The notes beneath the pieces are model-generated. The model made no database searches, was not told the origin of the DNA, and saw nothing but the letters and a program-made list of their open reading frames with translations. Made by a program: the position numbers and the translations under genes. A stretch of DNA of 48,694 nt from a virus: IMG/VR virus record IMGVR_UViG_3300000956_000006, positions 1-48,694 of that record. One strand, written 5' to 3'. Every line of letters starts with the position of its first letter. Position 1 is the first letter of the stretch. Of the stretch, positions 38,158 to 44,903 are shown piece after piece.

Positions 38158-38193
38158 GCCTCCCTGGGTGTTTCACACTCCGCCCAGGGAGGC
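38158..38193 (+). terminator. Strong hairpin after SSB-like gene
   Basis: GCCTCCCTGGG (38158-38168) and CCCAGGGAGGC (38183-38193) are perfect 11-bp arms with a 14-base loop. Only ACCTTTCC follows, so termination would be partial or need a factor. It may instead stabilise the SSB-like message or lower downstream expression. Confidence 0.5.
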
Positions 38194-38224
38194 ACCTTTC
38201 CTCAGCCAAGCACGGGAGGCCACC

Positions 38225-39592
38225 TTGGCCCTGACTAACAAGTACCAACGCATCCCCCTCGACTCCATCATCATCGAGCGTGACTCACGCCAGCGCCGAG
38301 AGGTGGAGGTCGATGAAGAATTCCTCCGAACCATCAAGGTTCGCGGGGTCATCCAGCCCATCATCGTGGAGAAAACTTCCGATGGCTTCCTCCTCATTGC
38401 GGGAGAACGCCGAGTGGCTCACTCCAGAGCTGCTGGCCTCCCAGACATTCCAGCTCGCTTTGCATCCGATCTGGCTCCAATCGAGCGAAAGCTCCTTGAG
38501 TTCGAGGAAAACGCAAAGAGGCTGGACCTTCCATGGAAAGACCGAGCATCAGCCATCTGGGACATCCATCACACTCACCTTGAACTGGACGCTGGCTGGA
38601 CCCAAGAGTCCACAGCCGAGTCTATCGGACTTAGCTCTGGCTACGTCTCAACTGCAATCGCGGTTGCAGACGCTCTTAGAGCAGGAGATGCTTCGATTGT
38701 GGAAGCAGGTGGCATCAGAGCCGCCTATAATATCCTCGCCCGGAAGCAAGAGCGAAAGCAAGACGACACCATGAATGACCTGCTGGCATCCGTGCCGGTG
38801 AAACCTTCCCCTGCTCACGGAGTTAAGTCTCCCGGACAGGTCACCGCTACAGAAGCCAGGATAGCCCAGCCTCGCCTAACCCACGAGGAGACCTCCATTC
38901 TTTACTCCTCCTTCCTGGAGTGGGCTCCTGCTTACTCTGGCCAGCCCTTCAACCTGATCCACTGTGACTTCCCCTATGGGATAGGCATCGACAAGTCAGA
39001 CCAGGCCAAGTCAGCCAACTGGGACGAGCAGTACGACGACTCGGATGAAGTCTTTTGGGAGCTCTGTCGCTGCTTGGCCGAGAACCTCGACCGCCTGATG
39101 AGCCCCTTCGCTCATCTTTTCTTCTGGACATCCTCAGACCTTCGGCGACAGAATGAAGTCCTCCAATTCTTCCAGCTCCACGCCCCTTCCCTCGACTTCT
39201 GCCCAGTCCCCTACATCTGGCACAAGACCGACAACCGGGGTATCCTTCCCGATCCTAAGCGAGGCGGAAGGAGAGTTTATGAAACGGCTCTCATGGCCAG
39301 CCGGGGCGACAGGCTGGTTGTTAAGAGTGTGTCCAATGCGTATGGAGCCCCAACAAGCAAGGAAATTCATCAGAGCGAAAAGCCCGAGCCCATGCTGCGG
39401 CACTACTTCCAGATGCTTGTTGATGAAGATACACGCCTGCTCGATCCTACTTGCGGAAGTGGAACTGCGCTTCGAGCAGCAGAAAGTCTCGGAGCCTCCT
39501 ACGTCCTAGGCCTGGAGCGGAACCCAGGCTATGTAGAAGGGGCCAGGATCGCTCTGAGGAAGTTCCGCTTGAAGAGGAGCGCTGCGAAGTGA
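38225..39592 (+). CDS. ParB-like domain fused to DNA methyltransferase
   Basis: 455 residues from a TTG at 38225, which has GGGAGG five bases upstream; the frame is open to 38168 through the hairpin but without a site. N-terminal ParB/Srx-type domain: VIQPIIVEK, then LLIAGERRVAHSRAAG (about 55-71), and an HTH-like part ESTAESIGLSSGYVSTA (about 128-145). C-terminal methyltransferase of beta-type order: motif IV HCDFPYG (about 245, D-F-P-Y instead of D-P-P-Y), HQSEKPEPMLRHYFQML, motif I LLDPTCGSGTALRAA (about 403-418) and LGLERNP. It should methylate adenine or cytosine N4 in DNA, perhaps to evade restriction or regulate packaging. Confidence 0.87.
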   Translation: MALTNKYQRIPLDSIIIERDSRQRREVEVDEEFLRTIKVRGVIQPIIVEKTSDGFLLIAGERRVAHSRAAGLPDIPARFASDLAPIERKLLEFEENAKRLDLPWKDRASAIWDIHHTHLELDAGWTQESTAESIGLSSGYVSTAIAVADALRAGDASIVEAGGIRAAYNILARKQERKQDDTMNDLLASVPVKPSPAHGVKSPGQVTATEARIAQPRLTHEETSILYSSFLEWAPAYSGQPFNLIHCDFPYGIGIDKSDQAKSANWDEQYDDSDEVFWELCRCLAENLDRLMSPFAHLFFWTSSDLRRQNEVLQFFQLHAPSLDFCPVPYIWHKTDNRGILPDPKRGGRRVYETALMASRGDRLVVKSVSNAYGAPTSKEIHQSEKPEPMLRHYFQMLVDEDTRLLDPTCGSGTALRAAESLGASYVLGLERNPGYVEGARIALRKFRLKRSAAK

Positions 39593-39786: not shown

Positions 39787-40403
39787 AACGTAGAGTTGTC
39801 CTATTCAACGGCCCTCCTTCCTGCGGCAAGGACACCGCTGCGATAGGGTTATTCGAAAGACTGACCTACCAGCGGCTGGGCTTGGAGCATGAACTCCACC
39901 TCTCCCTGGAGCGCTTCTCCATGCCGAACAAGCGAGCCTTCGCTGGCATGATGGGGCTGAATATCTCCACATTCGGAGTGGTGGAGGTTTGGGAAGCGAG
40001 GAAGGAAGAGATCATCCCTTCCCTCGGTATCTCCTATCGCCAGTGGCAGATTGACTTCTCTGAGAGGTTCATGAAGCCTCTCTACGGCCAAGCCATCTTC
40101 GGCCAACTCCTCGCCGAGCGCTGGTTGCGCCGCACCGTCGGCCTCAAGGAGGACCAGGCCCTTATCATCCCAGACTCTGGCTTTAAGTCCGAGACCGAGG
40201 TCCTTCTCCGGAGAGGTTGGGACATCCTCCTCATCCGCATCCATCGGCCAGGGACAGACTTCTCCAAAGACTCCCGATCCTACCTAGAGTTCGACCCTCG
40301 GCCCAACCTCCTCCAACTGGACATCCAGAACGATGGAACAGAGGCCGACTTCCAAGCTCACATCGTCGGGGTCTTCCAATCATGGATGAAGTCTCTTTCC
40401 TAA
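39783..40403 (+). CDS. Deoxynucleoside monophosphate kinase-like protein
   Basis: 206 residues. P-loop FNGPPSCGKDTAA (8-20), a helical lid region (GISYRQWQIDFSERFMKPLYG), IIPDSGFKSETEVLL (about 127-141) and LLIRIHRPGTDFSKDSRSYLE (about 148-168), the R-x-x-R-x-x-x-D-x-x-x-D type region of phage nucleotide kinases (T4 gp1-like). It would raise dNMPs to dNDPs for replication. Overlaps the next gene by 22 bases. Confidence 0.8.
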   Translation: MKRRVVLFNGPPSCGKDTAAIGLFERLTYQRLGLEHELHLSLERFSMPNKRAFAGMMGLNISTFGVVEVWEARKEEIIPSLGISYRQWQIDFSERFMKPLYGQAIFGQLLAERWLRRTVGLKEDQALIIPDSGFKSETEVLLRRGWDILLIRIHRPGTDFSKDSRSYLEFDPRPNLLQLDIQNDGTEADFQAHIVGVFQSWMKSLS

Positions 40404-41443
40404 ACCCTTGCTGCAAAGCCATCGGTCCCCCGAAGGCCAGGGTCATGGCGATCGGGGAAGCTCCCGGCGAGCAGGAAGAGCTAACCGGGATACCTTTCAT
40501 CGGCTCCGCTGGGCAGGAGTTCGATCGCCTGCTCGGCGAAGCTGGCTTCTCGCGTAGCGACCTCTACCTCACCAACGTCCTCTGGACACGTCCCCCCGCT
40601 AACAAACTGGAGGCCTTCTGTGTCACGAAAAAAGACCTTCCAAGCGGCTACTCTCTGCCCACACTGTCATCGGGTAAGTATCTCCACCCTAGTCTCCTCC
40701 CAGAGCTTGACCGCCTTCGATCCGAGATTGCTAGCGTCAGTCCCAATCTCATCTTCGCCCTTGGTAATACCGCATGCTGGGCTGTCTTCGGACAGACTGG
40801 AATTAGCAAAATCAGGGGAACAGTTCAAGCAGGACCACATGGGATTAAAGTCCTCCCAACCTATCACCCCTCCCATGTCCTCAGACAGTGGGACGTCAGA
40901 CCAATCGTCCTCGCAGACCTCATCAAGGGAAGAAGAGAAGCAGACTTCCCAGAAATCAGACGCCCGAGAAGAAGCGTTATCATCAACCCTTCCCTTACGG
41001 AAATCAGAGAATTCGTAGAGAGGGCTCTTCTCGCCAAGCTGATGGCGGTTGATATTGAGACCCGCAACCGCCAAATCACCTGTATTGGCTTTGCCATAGC
41101 TAGAGATGATGCTCTAGTCATTCCATTCGTGGACCTGCGGAAGAAGCCCCCGAACTACTGGGAGGACCCAGCTCATGAAGCCTGGGCATGGCTGCAGGTC
41201 CAAGCTCTTCTCGCCTCCCCTTCCCGGAAGATCTTCCAGAATGGCCTGTACGATCTCCAGTACCTCCGCCGTATGGGCCTGCATATAGAGAACTGCGCTG
41301 AGGACACCATGCTTCAGCACCACGCGATGTATCCTGAGCTTCTCAAGGGCCTCGGCTTCCTCGGTTCCGCCTACACGAATGAAGCCAGCTGGAAGCTGCT
41401 TCGCCAGCGAAGCTCCGATGACCTGAAAGGAGATGACGAATGA
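40382..41443 (+). CDS. Uracil-DNA glycosylase fused to partial DnaQ-like 3'-5' exonuclease
   Basis: 353 residues from the ATG at 40382. N-terminal UDG superfamily: VMAIGEAPGEQEELTGIPFIGSAG (22-44), LTNVLWTRPPANK, LIFALGNTACWAVFG, LPTYHPSHVLRQ (about 160, catalytic loop). C-terminal proofreading nuclease: ExoI LMAVDIETR (about 219-227) and ExoII KIFQNGLYDLQYLRR (about 282-296), then EDTMLQHHAMYPELLKGLGFLGSAYTNEASWKLL and a stop. The ExoIII motif that should follow within a few residues is absent here and opens the polymerase gene 750 bases downstream. The two products probably join to form one enzyme. Confidence 0.88.
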   Translation: MDEVSFLNPCCKAIGPPKARVMAIGEAPGEQEELTGIPFIGSAGQEFDRLLGEAGFSRSDLYLTNVLWTRPPANKLEAFCVTKKDLPSGYSLPTLSSGKYLHPSLLPELDRLRSEIASVSPNLIFALGNTACWAVFGQTGISKIRGTVQAGPHGIKVLPTYHPSHVLRQWDVRPIVLADLIKGRREADFPEIRRPRRSVIINPSLTEIREFVERALLAKLMAVDIETRNRQITCIGFAIARDDALVIPFVDLRKKPPNYWEDPAHEAWAWLQVQALLASPSRKIFQNGLYDLQYLRRMGLHIENCAEDTMLQHHAMYPELLKGLGFLGSAYTNEASWKLLRQRSSDDLKGDDE

Positions 41444-41802
41444 GAATTCTTGATCCAGGGCATCGTTATTCCATTCTCTCTTTCGATGGTGCCTGTGAGC
41501 AGTATATCCAGTTCATGAAACGAGTAGGCCCTAAATTTCCAGGAAACGAAGAGGCTTATCCTGGGACTAATTGTCAGGAACTTCTTAGAGTGCTGATTGA
41601 TAGGGTTAAGTATTTAGAAAATCAGGTTCCTTGTGTGGAGAATAAATTAATCCTCTCTTCTCTAGAGAATGCTCTCTTCCTTTTCGAGGCTCGTGCAGCC
41701 AGACGTCATGGAAGAGATTTCAAAGAAGAAACTCCATCGCAAGTAGCCCAGCTTGGCTACTGCTCTATCTGTGGACATGTACTCTGTGAGCATGAGCTAT
41801 GA
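41440..41802 (+). CDS. Inserted small gene; common uncharacterised phage protein
   Basis: 120 residues, ATGA overlap with the UDG-exonuclease gene. Pattern GHRYSILSFDGACEQYIQFMKRVGPKFPGNEEAYPGTNCQELLRVLIDRVKYLENQ followed by LENALFLFEARAARRHG resembles a widespread phage protein of unknown function (R-x-G-P-x-x-P-G-N ... G-T-x-x-Q-E). The C-terminus has C-x2-C-x5-C-x-H (CSICGHVLCEH), a possible zinc site. Its DNA is visibly more AT-rich than its neighbours, which fits later acquisition. It sits in the gap of the split polymerase. Confidence 0.7.
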   Translation: MRILDPGHRYSILSFDGACEQYIQFMKRVGPKFPGNEEAYPGTNCQELLRVLIDRVKYLENQVPCVENKLILSSLENALFLFEARAARRHGRDFKEETPSQVAQLGYCSICGHVLCEHEL

Positions 41803-42194
41803 AAATCTACACCGCTTCCAAAATCATTCACGCTCAGATGTGGCGAGATCTTCGCCGGGAGTTCCCCTCCATCTTCTTCACCGCCCATTGGCCAGACCTC
41901 ATCGCTTTGAACCTGGAAAGCGACAAGAGCCCCCTGGTCTTTCGAGATGCCTGGGAACAGAACATAGCCGACGTGCTAGAGGCTGACGTCCTCATCCTCT
42001 TCCATCTCCAAGGCGAACGCCATGAAGGCTCTTTTATCGAAGTTGGTGCTGCTCTTGCTGCTGGCAAGCGTGTACATATTATCAGCGACGCTATCGACGA
42101 ACTAGGGAAGTGGAAGTGGCATCCTTCCATCTCCATATGGAAGCTCTCTCTCAGAGATTTACTTCGCCAGCTTCTCAAGGGTGAGCAATCGTGA
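41799..42194 (+). CDS. Nucleoside 2-deoxyribosyltransferase-like protein
   Basis: 131 residues, ATGA overlap. MKIYTASKIIHAQMWRDLRREFP, WEQNIADVLEADVLILFHLQGERHEGSFIEVGAALAAGKRVHIIS (about 51-95) is the NDT/DUF4406-type Rossmann-like fold, with the D-x-L-I-x-F ... E-x-G-A-A-x-A-x-G-K pattern; Glu80 is in the place of the catalytic residue. Such proteins cleave or exchange nucleoside bases; related folds act on NAD. Second gene in the polymerase gap. Confidence 0.75.
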   Translation: MKIYTASKIIHAQMWRDLRREFPSIFFTAHWPDLIALNLESDKSPLVFRDAWEQNIADVLEADVLILFHLQGERHEGSFIEVGAALAAGKRVHIISDAIDELGKWKWHPSISIWKLSLRDLLRQLLKGEQS

Positions 42195-43729
42195 AGATTC
42201 AGACCGGAGACCTCAAGCCTGGCGACCTCATAGGCCATGACCTTCACCAGGTCTACAACGGCCTAGACGCCTGCCTCACCTTCGAGATATTCGAAGTCCT
42301 CTCCGAAGCCATGCGGAAGGAGAATGATCCCAGCTGGGAAAACATCTACTCCTTCGAGCGAGGCATGCAAGCGCCGGCTCTGGACATGATGCTTCGCGGC
42401 TGGCTCATCGACCCCTACGAGCGGCAGGTTGGCACCAAGGCCACCCGGCTCCAGAAGGAAAGGGTAGAAGCCATCCTGAACCGTTACGGCTTTGCCACCT
42501 GGGGTAAGCCCATCAACCCACGCTCCCCTCTCCAACTCAAGAATTACTTCTACTCCCACCTCGGCCTGCCGGAACAGTTCCGCTTTGATAAGGGAGAGCG
42601 GAAAGTCACCACTAACCGGGAAGCGCTGGAAAAACTCGAGGACTACCTCTATGCCCGACCACAAATCCTCTCCATCTTGGCAGCCCGTGACGCTACAAAG
42701 CTCCTTTCAGTGTTGGAAACTGAAATCGACCAAGACGGTCGGATGCGAACCTCTTATAATATCGCCGGTACCAATACAGGAAGATGGTCCTCTTCTTCTA
42801 ACTCGACCGGAGGGGGAACCAATCTTCAGAATATCACCCCGAAGCTGCGAAGAATGTTCATTGCTGATAAGGGGTATAAACTCTGCTACCTTGACCTGGA
42901 GCAGGCAGAAAGCAGAGTGGTCGGTCTCCTTGTCTGGTGGCTCCTTGGCGATGCCACTTACTTGGACGCCTGCGAGTCAGGCGATCTTCACACCTACGTT
43001 GCCCGGCTTGTCTGGCCAAAGCTCCCATGGACCGGGGAGATTAAGAAGGATAGGGAGATCGCTGAGCAGATTTTCTATCGACATTTTACTTATCGCGATA
43101 TGGCTAAGCGTGGGGGTCATGGGACTAATTACTACGGTACTCCTCCTACTATGGCTAAGCATCTGAAGGTCACCACCCCGGTAATGCAGGAGTTTCAAGA
43201 TGCTTACTTCACTCCTTTCTCTGGTATCAGGCGATGGCATGTCCTCACTGCTAGAACTCTTGGACTCCATCAAGAAATTACAACTCCTCTTGGTCGTAGG
43301 CGTATTTTCTTTGGTCGTCCTGATGATGATGCTACTCTCCGAAAGGCGATAGCCTACGCTCCGCAGTCCACCGTCGGAGACCTTCTCAACTACGCCCTCT
43401 GGCGGCTCTGGAAGTATGAGCCCAGGATCGAACTCCTGGCTCAAATCCACGACGCTGTGGTGTTTCAGTATCCAGACGATCCTCGCTATGAAGCCGATAT
43501 TCTATCCTCCTGCATCGAGCTAACTCGCATCCCCCTCACCCTCCGAGGCCGGACCCTTACCATTCCCTCCGAGGCCAAGATCGGCTGGAATTGGGGTGAG
43601 AACCAGCTCGATCGCCCCCTCGAGAAACGCCTCTGGCCAGACGGCAACCCTAATGGACTTGTCAAGTGGAAATCAGGACAGAATGACTCCCGGCGAAGAG
43701 TCGTCGGATTGGATAGAGCAGTTTCTTGA
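42191..43729 (+). CDS. Family A DNA polymerase, carrying the ExoIII motif at its N-terminus
   Basis: 512 residues; GTG start overlapping the previous stop. It opens with HQVYNGLDACLT (Tyr22-x3-Asp26), the ExoIII motif of a proofreading domain whose ExoI and ExoII are in the gene ending at 41443. Then fingers/palm: TGRWSSSSN, motif A CYLDLEQAESRVV (about 233-245), motif B RDMAKRGGHGTNYYGTP (about 303-319), motif C QIHDAVVFQ (about 417-425). In motif C the usual H-D-E is H-D-A. Length fits a Klenow-like polymerase without most of its exonuclease. Main replicase of the phage. Confidence 0.92.
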   Translation: MKIQTGDLKPGDLIGHDLHQVYNGLDACLTFEIFEVLSEAMRKENDPSWENIYSFERGMQAPALDMMLRGWLIDPYERQVGTKATRLQKERVEAILNRYGFATWGKPINPRSPLQLKNYFYSHLGLPEQFRFDKGERKVTTNREALEKLEDYLYARPQILSILAARDATKLLSVLETEIDQDGRMRTSYNIAGTNTGRWSSSSNSTGGGTNLQNITPKLRRMFIADKGYKLCYLDLEQAESRVVGLLVWWLLGDATYLDACESGDLHTYVARLVWPKLPWTGEIKKDREIAEQIFYRHFTYRDMAKRGGHGTNYYGTPPTMAKHLKVTTPVMQEFQDAYFTPFSGIRRWHVLTARTLGLHQEITTPLGRRRIFFGRPDDDATLRKAIAYAPQSTVGDLLNYALWRLWKYEPRIELLAQIHDAVVFQYPDDPRYEADILSSCIELTRIPLTLRGRTLTIPSEAKIGWNWGENQLDRPLEKRLWPDGNPNGLVKWKSGQNDSRRRVVGLDRAVS

Positions 43730-44903
43730 CTACACTGACGGGATTAACTCCCCGGAAATCTTCCGTCTCTGGGCTGGGATAGTCTCGGTAGCAGGACTGC
43801 TGGAACGAAGGGTCTGGAGCGAGATCATGGGGTCTCAGCTCTATGCGAACCTCTATGCCCTGCTAGTCTCCAACCCTGGGGTAGGCAAGACCCAGGCGAT
43901 CCTGCGCACCTCTAAGGTCTGGATGGGAACCAAGCAGCTCCACGTGGCAGCGAACAGCGTGAGCAGGGCTTCCCTGGTCGATGCTGTAGCCAAGGCCCAG
44001 CGGATCATTATCAAGAACGGTATCCCCTTGGACTACCACTCCCTCCAGGTTGCTTCCTGGGAGTTCGGCACCCTAGTCCCCTCATACGATCTGGATTTCT
44101 TGAACCACCTGAATGAGCTCTACGATTGCGGGCCTTACTTCCGGGAAGAGAAACGCATGTTCAAGAACAACCCGATTGACATCTCCAACCCCCAGCTGAA
44201 CATGATCGCCGGAACTCAGCCTGCTTACCTCTCCTCCCTCCTCCCAGACGAAGCCTGGGGTATGGGCTTCATGACTCGGGTTATCATGGTCTACTCCGGC
44301 GAGATGGCCCGTCGGCCGAAGCTCTTCTCCAATGGAGAGGACCGCAAGGTAGCAGACCCGAAACTCCTAGCCGGCCTGGTTGCCAAGGGGGTCTCCCTCT
44401 TGGGGGAGATGGGCAAGGCTGAGTGGAGTTCCACCGCCCAGCTTGCCTACCAGACCTGGGTTGACGCAGGGATGCCGCCCTGTCCAGAGCACCCACGGCT
44501 CGAGGCCTACAACACTCGCCGCCTGATCCATGTCGGGAAGCTGGCCATGATTTCCGCCGCCTCCGCCGGGCATCCCCTAGCCATCGAGTTGGAGGACTTC
44601 AACCGGGCTCTAGCCTGGCTGATCGAGGCCGAAGTCACCATGCCTGATGTCTTCCGAGCCATGGTTGGCAAGTCCGACATGGTGATCCTGAGAGAGCTCT
44701 ACCAGTACGTGTGGGAGGCTTACTCCAAGGGGAAGAAGCCCATCCACAATTCCCGCCTGGTGGCGTTCCTCTCCGCTCGTGTGACCTCTGACAAAATCGA
44801 CCGGATTATCCAGGTCGCAGCTAAGTCGGGTCTAATTGAGAACGGGACATATCCAGATGACTGGAAGCCGGTTCCTCGTGCGAGTGGGACCCTGGAGAAT
44901 TAG
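43683..44903 (+). CDS. DUF3987-like P-loop ATPase (putative helicase/primase-associated)
   Basis: 406 residues from the ATG at 43683, AGGA four bases upstream, overlapping the polymerase gene by 47 bases. WIEQFLDYTDGINSPEIFRLWAGIVSVAGLLERRVW (split, about 10-45), Walker A LLVSNPGVGKTQAI (about 60-73), a Walker B-like region around ASWEFGTLVPSYD, and NPQLNMIAGTQPAYLSSLLPDEAWGMGFMTRVIMVY, the typical DUF3987 sensor/arginine part. C-terminal helical winged part (LRELYQYVWEAYSKGKKPI). Found in phages near DNA polymerase and thought to act in replication initiation or as a helicase; its exact job is not established. Ends in an 83-base tail-to-tail overlap with the gene at 44821. Confidence 0.75.
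   Translation: MTPGEESSDWIEQFLDYTDGINSPEIFRLWAGIVSVAGLLERRVWSEIMGSQLYANLYALLVSNPGVGKTQAILRTSKVWMGTKQLHVAANSVSRASLVDAVAKAQRIIIKNGIPLDYHSLQVASWEFGTLVPSYDLDFLNHLNELYDCGPYFREEKRMFKNNPIDISNPQLNMIAGTQPAYLSSLLPDEAWGMGFMTRVIMVYSGEMARRPKLFSNGEDRKVADPKLLAGLVAKGVSLLGEMGKAEWSSTAQLAYQTWVDAGMPPCPEHPRLEAYNTRRLIHVGKLAMISAASAGHPLAIELEDFNRALAWLIEAEVTMPDVFRAMVGKSDMVILRELYQYVWEAYSKGKKPIHNSRLVAFLSARVTSDKIDRIIQVAAKSGLIENGTYPDDWKPVPRASGTLEN

Follow-up and report, generated by a model that had tools for sequence, protein, structure and literature searches.

The window analysed here, all 48,694 nucleotides of IMG/VR virus record IMGVR_UViG_3300000956_000006, carries a run of four plus-strand genes in which a uracil-DNA glycosylase (UDG)-exonuclease gene (chain 1) and a family A DNA polymerase gene (chain 2) flank two cargo genes. 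ExoI and ExoII of the 3'-5' exonuclease domain lie in chain 1, and ExoIII opens chain 2. The sequence-only reading had put these motifs and the two intervening genes at these positions, joined by short overlaps; both points held, with the junctions across the run reading ATGA, ATGA and GTGA in order. The two flanking genes encode, with high probability, two chains of one UDG-exonuclease-polymerase whose proofreading site is completed between them, the gene having been broken once and the gap serving as a cargo slot.

40382..41443, plus strand: chain 1 of the split polymerase, 353 amino acids, with UDG and the opening part of the 3'-5' exonuclease domain
41048..41065, plus strand: ExoI motif VDIETR (D224, E226), in chain 1
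41234..41266, plus strand: ExoII motif FQNGLYDLQYL (D291), in chain 1
41390..41440, plus strand: split-form-specific C-terminal tail of chain 1, WKLL(R)...K(R)DDE
41440..41802, plus strand: cargo gene 1, 120 amino acids, PHROG 2428, function unknown, guanine-cytosine (GC) content 0.435
41799..42194, plus strand: cargo gene 2, nucleoside 2-deoxyribosyltransferase (NDT)-like, 131 amino acids
42191..43729, plus strand: family A DNA polymerase (chain 2), beginning with ExoIII, 512 amino acids, GTG start
42191..42253, plus strand: chain 2 N-terminal lead, 21 residues, consensus M-x-x-I-x-T-x-x-L-x-P, specific to the split form
42254..42268, plus strand: ExoIII motif YNGLD (Y22, D26), in chain 2 helix 15-43

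A polymerase broken between ExoII and ExoIII

Chain 1, whose ATG start sits within an upstream kinase gene, matches the Pfam families UDG (7.5e-28) and DNA_pol_A_exo1 (5.5e-5). Its AlphaFold2 (AF2) model, with a predicted local distance difference test (pLDDT) score of 93.6, stops at the end of the exonuclease core and lacks the fold's last long helix; residues 345-353 have very low AF2 confidence and are predicted to be disordered in the lone chain. Foldseek returns family 4 UDGs, the solved phiLo polymerase 9qhs, which matches chain 1 by fold, and Klenow. The family 4 UDG assignment is supported by both the fold (1l9g, 1.6e-14) and the motifs GEAPGEQE and HP; no cysteine column reaches 90% in 57 chain 1 proteins, so the group as a whole does not conserve the four Cys ligands of an iron-sulphur cluster. 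A complete ExoIII encoded by the UDG gene itself, which the sequence-only reading had named as a finding that would count against a divided domain, was looked for, and no Tyr-x3-Asp follows ExoII in chain 1.

Chain 2 matches Pfam DNA_pol_A (PF00476, 3.9e-33) and E. coli Pol I (E 1.4e-30), and contains the family A palm motifs A (D235), B (R302, K306) and C (H420-D421). Its AF2 model (pLDDT 93.4) opens with a long helix, residues 15-43, that contains Y22 and D26, and Foldseek places it with Taq and Klenow.

Profile alignments locate the break inside the exonuclease domain. On PHROG 17, an intact phage polymerase profile, chain 1 covers columns 465-796 and chain 2 columns 809-1232, end to end. 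Against E. coli Pol I, residues 205-313 of chain 1 align with 336-446 and residues 20-470 of chain 2 with 495-926, pairing D224/E226/D291 with Pol I D355/E357/D424 and Y22/D26 with Y497/D501. Side by side, the two chains span the Klenow exonuclease and polymerase domains; the break falls after Asp424 and before Tyr497, in the stretch separating the ExoII helix from the ExoIII helix. A Pol I-type (DnaQ fold) exonuclease has ExoI-III in one chain; here ExoI and ExoII are in chain 1 and ExoIII is in chain 2, and the pair as a whole has the full set of catalytic residues. As expected of a split polymerase, the two nearby genes jointly match one intact polymerase.

The adjacency of the ExoII and ExoIII segments in intact relatives, also anticipated from the sequence, is confirmed by fused UDG-exonuclease-polymerase proteins. 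These proteins, of ~790-880 amino acids, are common (Microcystis phage Mel-JY34, MW202489, many viral contigs) and show the same domain order and motifs in one continuous protein, mostly with a K-D-E-G-K-type loop at the break site in place of the new termini.

Split and fused relatives

Profile scans, two over viral contigs and one over genome contigs, gathered ~180 loci, among which a script assigning exonuclease and polymerase matches to open frames distinguished 131 split and 44 fused loci. Removal of the window's duplicate and clustering of chain 1 at 97% yielded 90 distinct split pairs. Chain 1 lies upstream of chain 2 on the same strand in every split locus. The cultured Caulobacter phage Kuura carries a split pair and is the sole phage record here with a clear split match; early finds beyond it were viral contigs L005, L009, L011, L012 and L013, and a further pair (L188) lies in a contig of a Sphingomonadales metagenome-assembled genome, the split group being known mostly from environmental DNA. 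Chance, or an assembly or frameshift error, as the cause of the break was rejected, as 90 distinct pairs have the same break.

The polymerase tree, comprising 91 rows (59 split and 32 fused, below 80% identity), places the split rows on one side of a branch with a Shimodaira-Hasegawa-like approximate likelihood ratio test (SH-aLRT) support of 100, which is again 100 when four long rows are left out. A separate UDG-exonuclease (chain 1) tree, with 57 rows for the split members, gives the same split/fused division with a support of 92. Both are quick searches without bootstrap and with midpoint rooting, built with one distant pair (L007/L008) outside them; the search profiles were derived from split members, so that fused members inside the split group could be missed, and none appeared. 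Divergence is alike in the two chains in six pairs, for example 83/85% and 60/61%. From these sequence comparisons, the split apparently has a single origin, basal to a large phage group that includes all but L007 of the 90 distinct pairs.

The pair outside the group, a distant UDG-exonuclease and polymerase found in two contigs (L007:4802-7401 and L008:3919-6518), has the same break with a TAATG-type overlap and no cargo, and its ExoIII reads Y-G-N-A-I-D in L007. It may represent a second independent split; a frameshift error is also possible, because the two contigs are probably of one virus and the overlap is exactly 1 nucleotide.

Residues of the divided exonuclease site

The catalytic positions are retained on both sides of the break. 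ExoI Asp and Glu are present in all 89 scorable distinct split chains, ExoII Asp in 89 of 90 (Glu in 1 of 90), and ExoIII Tyr and Asp in every split member. In deeper alignments, where identity falls as low as ~38%, no substitution of D224 or E226 occurs among 57 chain 1 proteins and none of Y22 or D26 among 54 chain 2 proteins; D235, R302, K306 and D421 of the polymerase palm are likewise invariant in 54 members. Within the ExoIII motif of chain 2, Y22 and D26 alone are fully invariant, with N23, G24 and C27 varying. The ExoIII residues of Pol I are not known to take part in polymerisation, and their retention in chain 2 argues that they act together with chain 1. The sequence-only reading had left a choice between a site rebuilt from two chains and a loss of proofreading; the retained residues favour rebuilding, and a loss is unlikely, since both chains preserve the catalytic positions throughout a deep group. 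This pattern is best read as two-chain assembly, with the phages very probably restoring a single functional enzyme from the two proteins.

Splitting an active site could abolish its activity, and the break might mark decay with proofreading lost. We judge this very improbable, as the catalytic residues of both halves are kept in 90 distinct pairs, in contrast to the divPolA1 phage polymerases, whose exonuclease is judged inactive and has substitutions at all three catalytic aspartates (PMC11348598). Another reading, in which chain 1 is a self-sufficient, free UDG-exonuclease and chain 2 keeps its ExoIII helix purely as polymerase structure, is unlikely. In group 1 jumbo phages, other polymerases are presumed to be served by free-standing 3'-5' exonucleases (PMC7824862), and the long helix of chain 2 could be structural; however, chain 1 has neither Tyr-x3-Asp nor an equivalent past ExoII, and the residues of the motif that are fully invariant are exactly the catalytic Tyr and Asp. 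Polymerase homologues that always start at ExoIII with an unrelated role, which would also speak against a divided site, were not found.

In the proposed two-chain enzyme, chain 1 is predicted to fold as a UDG followed by a DnaQ-type exonuclease minus its last helix. Chain 2 is predicted to fold as a family A polymerase, and its initial long helix, which carries the ExoIII Tyr and Asp, would be the one that chain 1 lacks. The two proteins would associate, bringing ExoI Asp and Glu, ExoII Asp, and ExoIII Asp and Tyr together in one site capable of proofreading. The conserved new termini (chain 1 'WKxMR...KRDE', chain 2 'I-x-T-x-x-L') would probably aid this contact. Conservation in the chain 1 tail reaches 56/57 at W337, 57/57 at K338, 49/57 at R341 and 56/57 at K349, while the chain 2 lead, 17-33 residues long in 89 members, retains T5 in 43 of 53 and L8 in 36 of 52. 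The short conserved tails leave little room for a split intein at the new termini. Made once at the base of the group, the break would have been kept ever since, with the gap acting as a slot for cargo, often nucleotide-pool enzymes, gained and lost without breaking the enzyme.

Several points weigh against this enzyme. Its structural support consists of single-chain models, and the conserved Tyr and Asp could be partly structural. The exonuclease Pfam match of chain 1 falls 0.1 bit below the family cut-off, and one member (L013, 5992-7047) has Glu for the ExoII Asp (QNGLYEAQYL). The members are mostly metagenomic contigs, with Kuura alone cultured and its chain 1 gene annotated as hypothetical. 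It is also conceivable, and in our view rather doubtful, that the split is itself useful: the proofreading half could dissociate, be dosed separately or be regulated, and the gap could be selected for nucleotide-pool enzymes that are co-translated with the polymerase and perhaps touch it.

Other motifs and insertions in the two chains were recorded alongside. The UDG motif GEAPGEQE is degenerate in L002:6210-7319 (GDCPTDGD), L046:3128-4135 (GEVPSDQD) and L077:3915-4940 (GDYYGPEE); glycosylase activity may have been lost in some members, with the exonuclease residues kept. Tyr replaces the usual His ahead of the catalytic Asp of motif C in eight split members (L137, L047, L138, L175, L178, L182, L151 and L128). 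Intein-like in-frame inserts of ~280-300 residues, starting with C-L-T and ending with T-G-N before S, occur at two insertion points in the polymerase chain of four loci (L068:4992-7328, L140:7329-9806, L184:7827-10274 and L181:4632-6418), with LAGLIDADG_3 in two.

Gap cargo, the origin of the break and known split enzymes

The gap between the chains measures -1 base pair (bp) in L046, 0 in L077, 2 in L055 and 52 in L057, these four members having no cargo, and extends up to 4643 bp in L165, with a median of 598 and 747 in the window. The largest gap (L165:6144-10786, 4.6 kb) holds ~nine open reading frames (ORFs). Mechanical ORF calls, with the polymerase start estimated, give 195 ORFs in 89 gaps, forming 119 clusters of which 97 are single. 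NDT-superfamily genes of three kinds are present in 33 of the 89 gaps and near just 2 of 44 fused genes; in 28 of the 33 gaps they directly adjoin the polymerase start. Other cargo includes MazG-like genes (two clusters, in 6 and 3 loci), phosphatase, kinase-like and methyltransferase genes, and HNH endonucleases in 6 gaps.

Cargo gene 2 of the window belongs to the smallest of the three NDT kinds, with homologues in the gaps of L058, L116 and L179 and 38% identity to the annotated NDT of Rhizobium phage RHph_X2_30; its match to Pfam PF05014 (1.6e-4, 22.2 bits) lies under the curated cut-off of 28.8. Cargo gene 1, which had been described as a common phage protein with a putative zinc site (CSICGHVLCEH), matches one PHROG of unknown function and yields no Pfam family, no phage record by tblastn and no homologue among the other gap ORFs, so that neither description was established. 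It is indeed AT-richer, with a GC of 0.435 against 0.576, the lowest among sampled 363-bp genome windows. An intron between the halves, such as a group I intron, was considered and rejected, with no Rfam match at the gathering threshold in the window and the gap filled end to end by ORFs.

Close relatives differ in cargo around intact chains. L057 and L058, at 83 and 85% identity in the two chains, are distinguished by a single NDT-type gene that exactly fills the gap, the flanking chains being intact, and L123 and L134 carry near-identical chains around gaps of 340 versus 784 bp. As judged from these sequences, the gap is a slot where cargo changes between close relatives, with NDT-superfamily genes recurring.

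The sequence-only reading had attributed the split to acquisition of the cassette. That the window's own two genes caused the break in this phage is scarcely credible: they lie exactly in the break and the first is AT-rich, but relatives have the same break with different cargo or none, and the one-gene difference between L057 and L058 leaves the flanks intact. For this cassette, the comparisons indicate that the split came first and the cassette later, and the low GC of the first insert fits a later or recent arrival in a gap that was already there.

Candidates for what made the original break are a homing endonuclease, an NDT-type gene and a simple cargo-free stop/start pair. One tentative scenario, possible though not favoured, is that an intact gene was interrupted long ago by an HNH homing endonuclease or an NDT-type gene, which other cargo later replaced; it concerns origin only and is compatible with the two-chain enzyme. 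Homing endonucleases split phage genes in other systems (PMC2988022), HNH genes occur in the 6 gaps mentioned above, and the NDT-bearing gaps lie on widely spread branches. Against it, in a test for one ancestral NDT gene shared across the gaps, NDT presence requires 16 changes on the tree versus a mean of 19.4 and a minimum of 15 for shuffled labels, and is barely more clustered; the three NDT types are weakly related by profile (E 0.017, 0.004 and 8.9e-5); and cargo-free members exist, one of which (L046) sits on an unresolved deep branch of the group.

Other phage polymerases are known in two parts. The passages on gene 43 in PMC2988022, citing Petrov et al. 2010, describe a split into 43A and 43B in Aeromonas phages 25 and 44RR, with the phage 25 chains co-purifying with polymerase activity and the seg43 endonuclease or untranslated sequence lying between the halves. 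As described there, 43A/43B resembles the present pair as a phage replicative polymerase in two chains with extra DNA between, and differs in being family B, T4-like, without UDG and confined to few phages; here a family A enzyme is broken between ExoII and ExoIII by one old split across a large group, with variable multi-gene cargo. OM43 phages MEP401 and MEP402 and relatives have a family A polymerase divided over two ORFs that are separated by a small ORF of unknown function, an arrangement shared by most group members, but there the first ORF holds the exonuclease domain and the break cuts the polymerase domain (PMC10580990). The pol gamma-like polymerase of cyanophage Mic1 likewise spans two ORFs (ORF85/86), separated by a 298-bp interval called an intron, but ExoI-III are all in the first ORF and the break is in the polymerase part (PMC7156551). 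The nrdA gene of Aeromonas phage Aeh1 is another phage enzyme cut in a functionally critical region, split by mobE and reassembled in active form (PMC2988022); it is a different enzyme, with a homing-endonuclease insertion in one phage rather than a group-wide cargo slot.

Within the literature covered, subscription papers aside, split phage polymerases are described, none with this ExoII/ExoIII split. What appears new relative to them is that a family A enzyme is divided within its proofreading site, by an ancient split whose gap is a variable slot. A catalytic-site split kept by a whole phage group offers a natural test of an active site divided between proteins under selection, with ~90 distinct pairs available for co-variation, expression and structure work and one cultured phage. 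The annotation of Kuura can be corrected accordingly, its 'hypothetical' first gene carrying most of the polymerase proofreading domain, and the gap illustrates how phages add cargo inside the gene pair of an essential enzyme.

One further gene adjoins the run downstream:

43683..44903, plus strand: DUF3987 primase/helicase-like gene, PHROG 14296, Pfam DUF3987

This gene overlaps the polymerase gene by 47 bp, and the polymerase-helicase junction is tight or overlapping in 53 of 73 loci, with the distance estimated from the helicase profile. Elsewhere in the window, a single ORF at 38168-39592 combines a ParB N-terminal domain with an N6/N4 DNA methylase.

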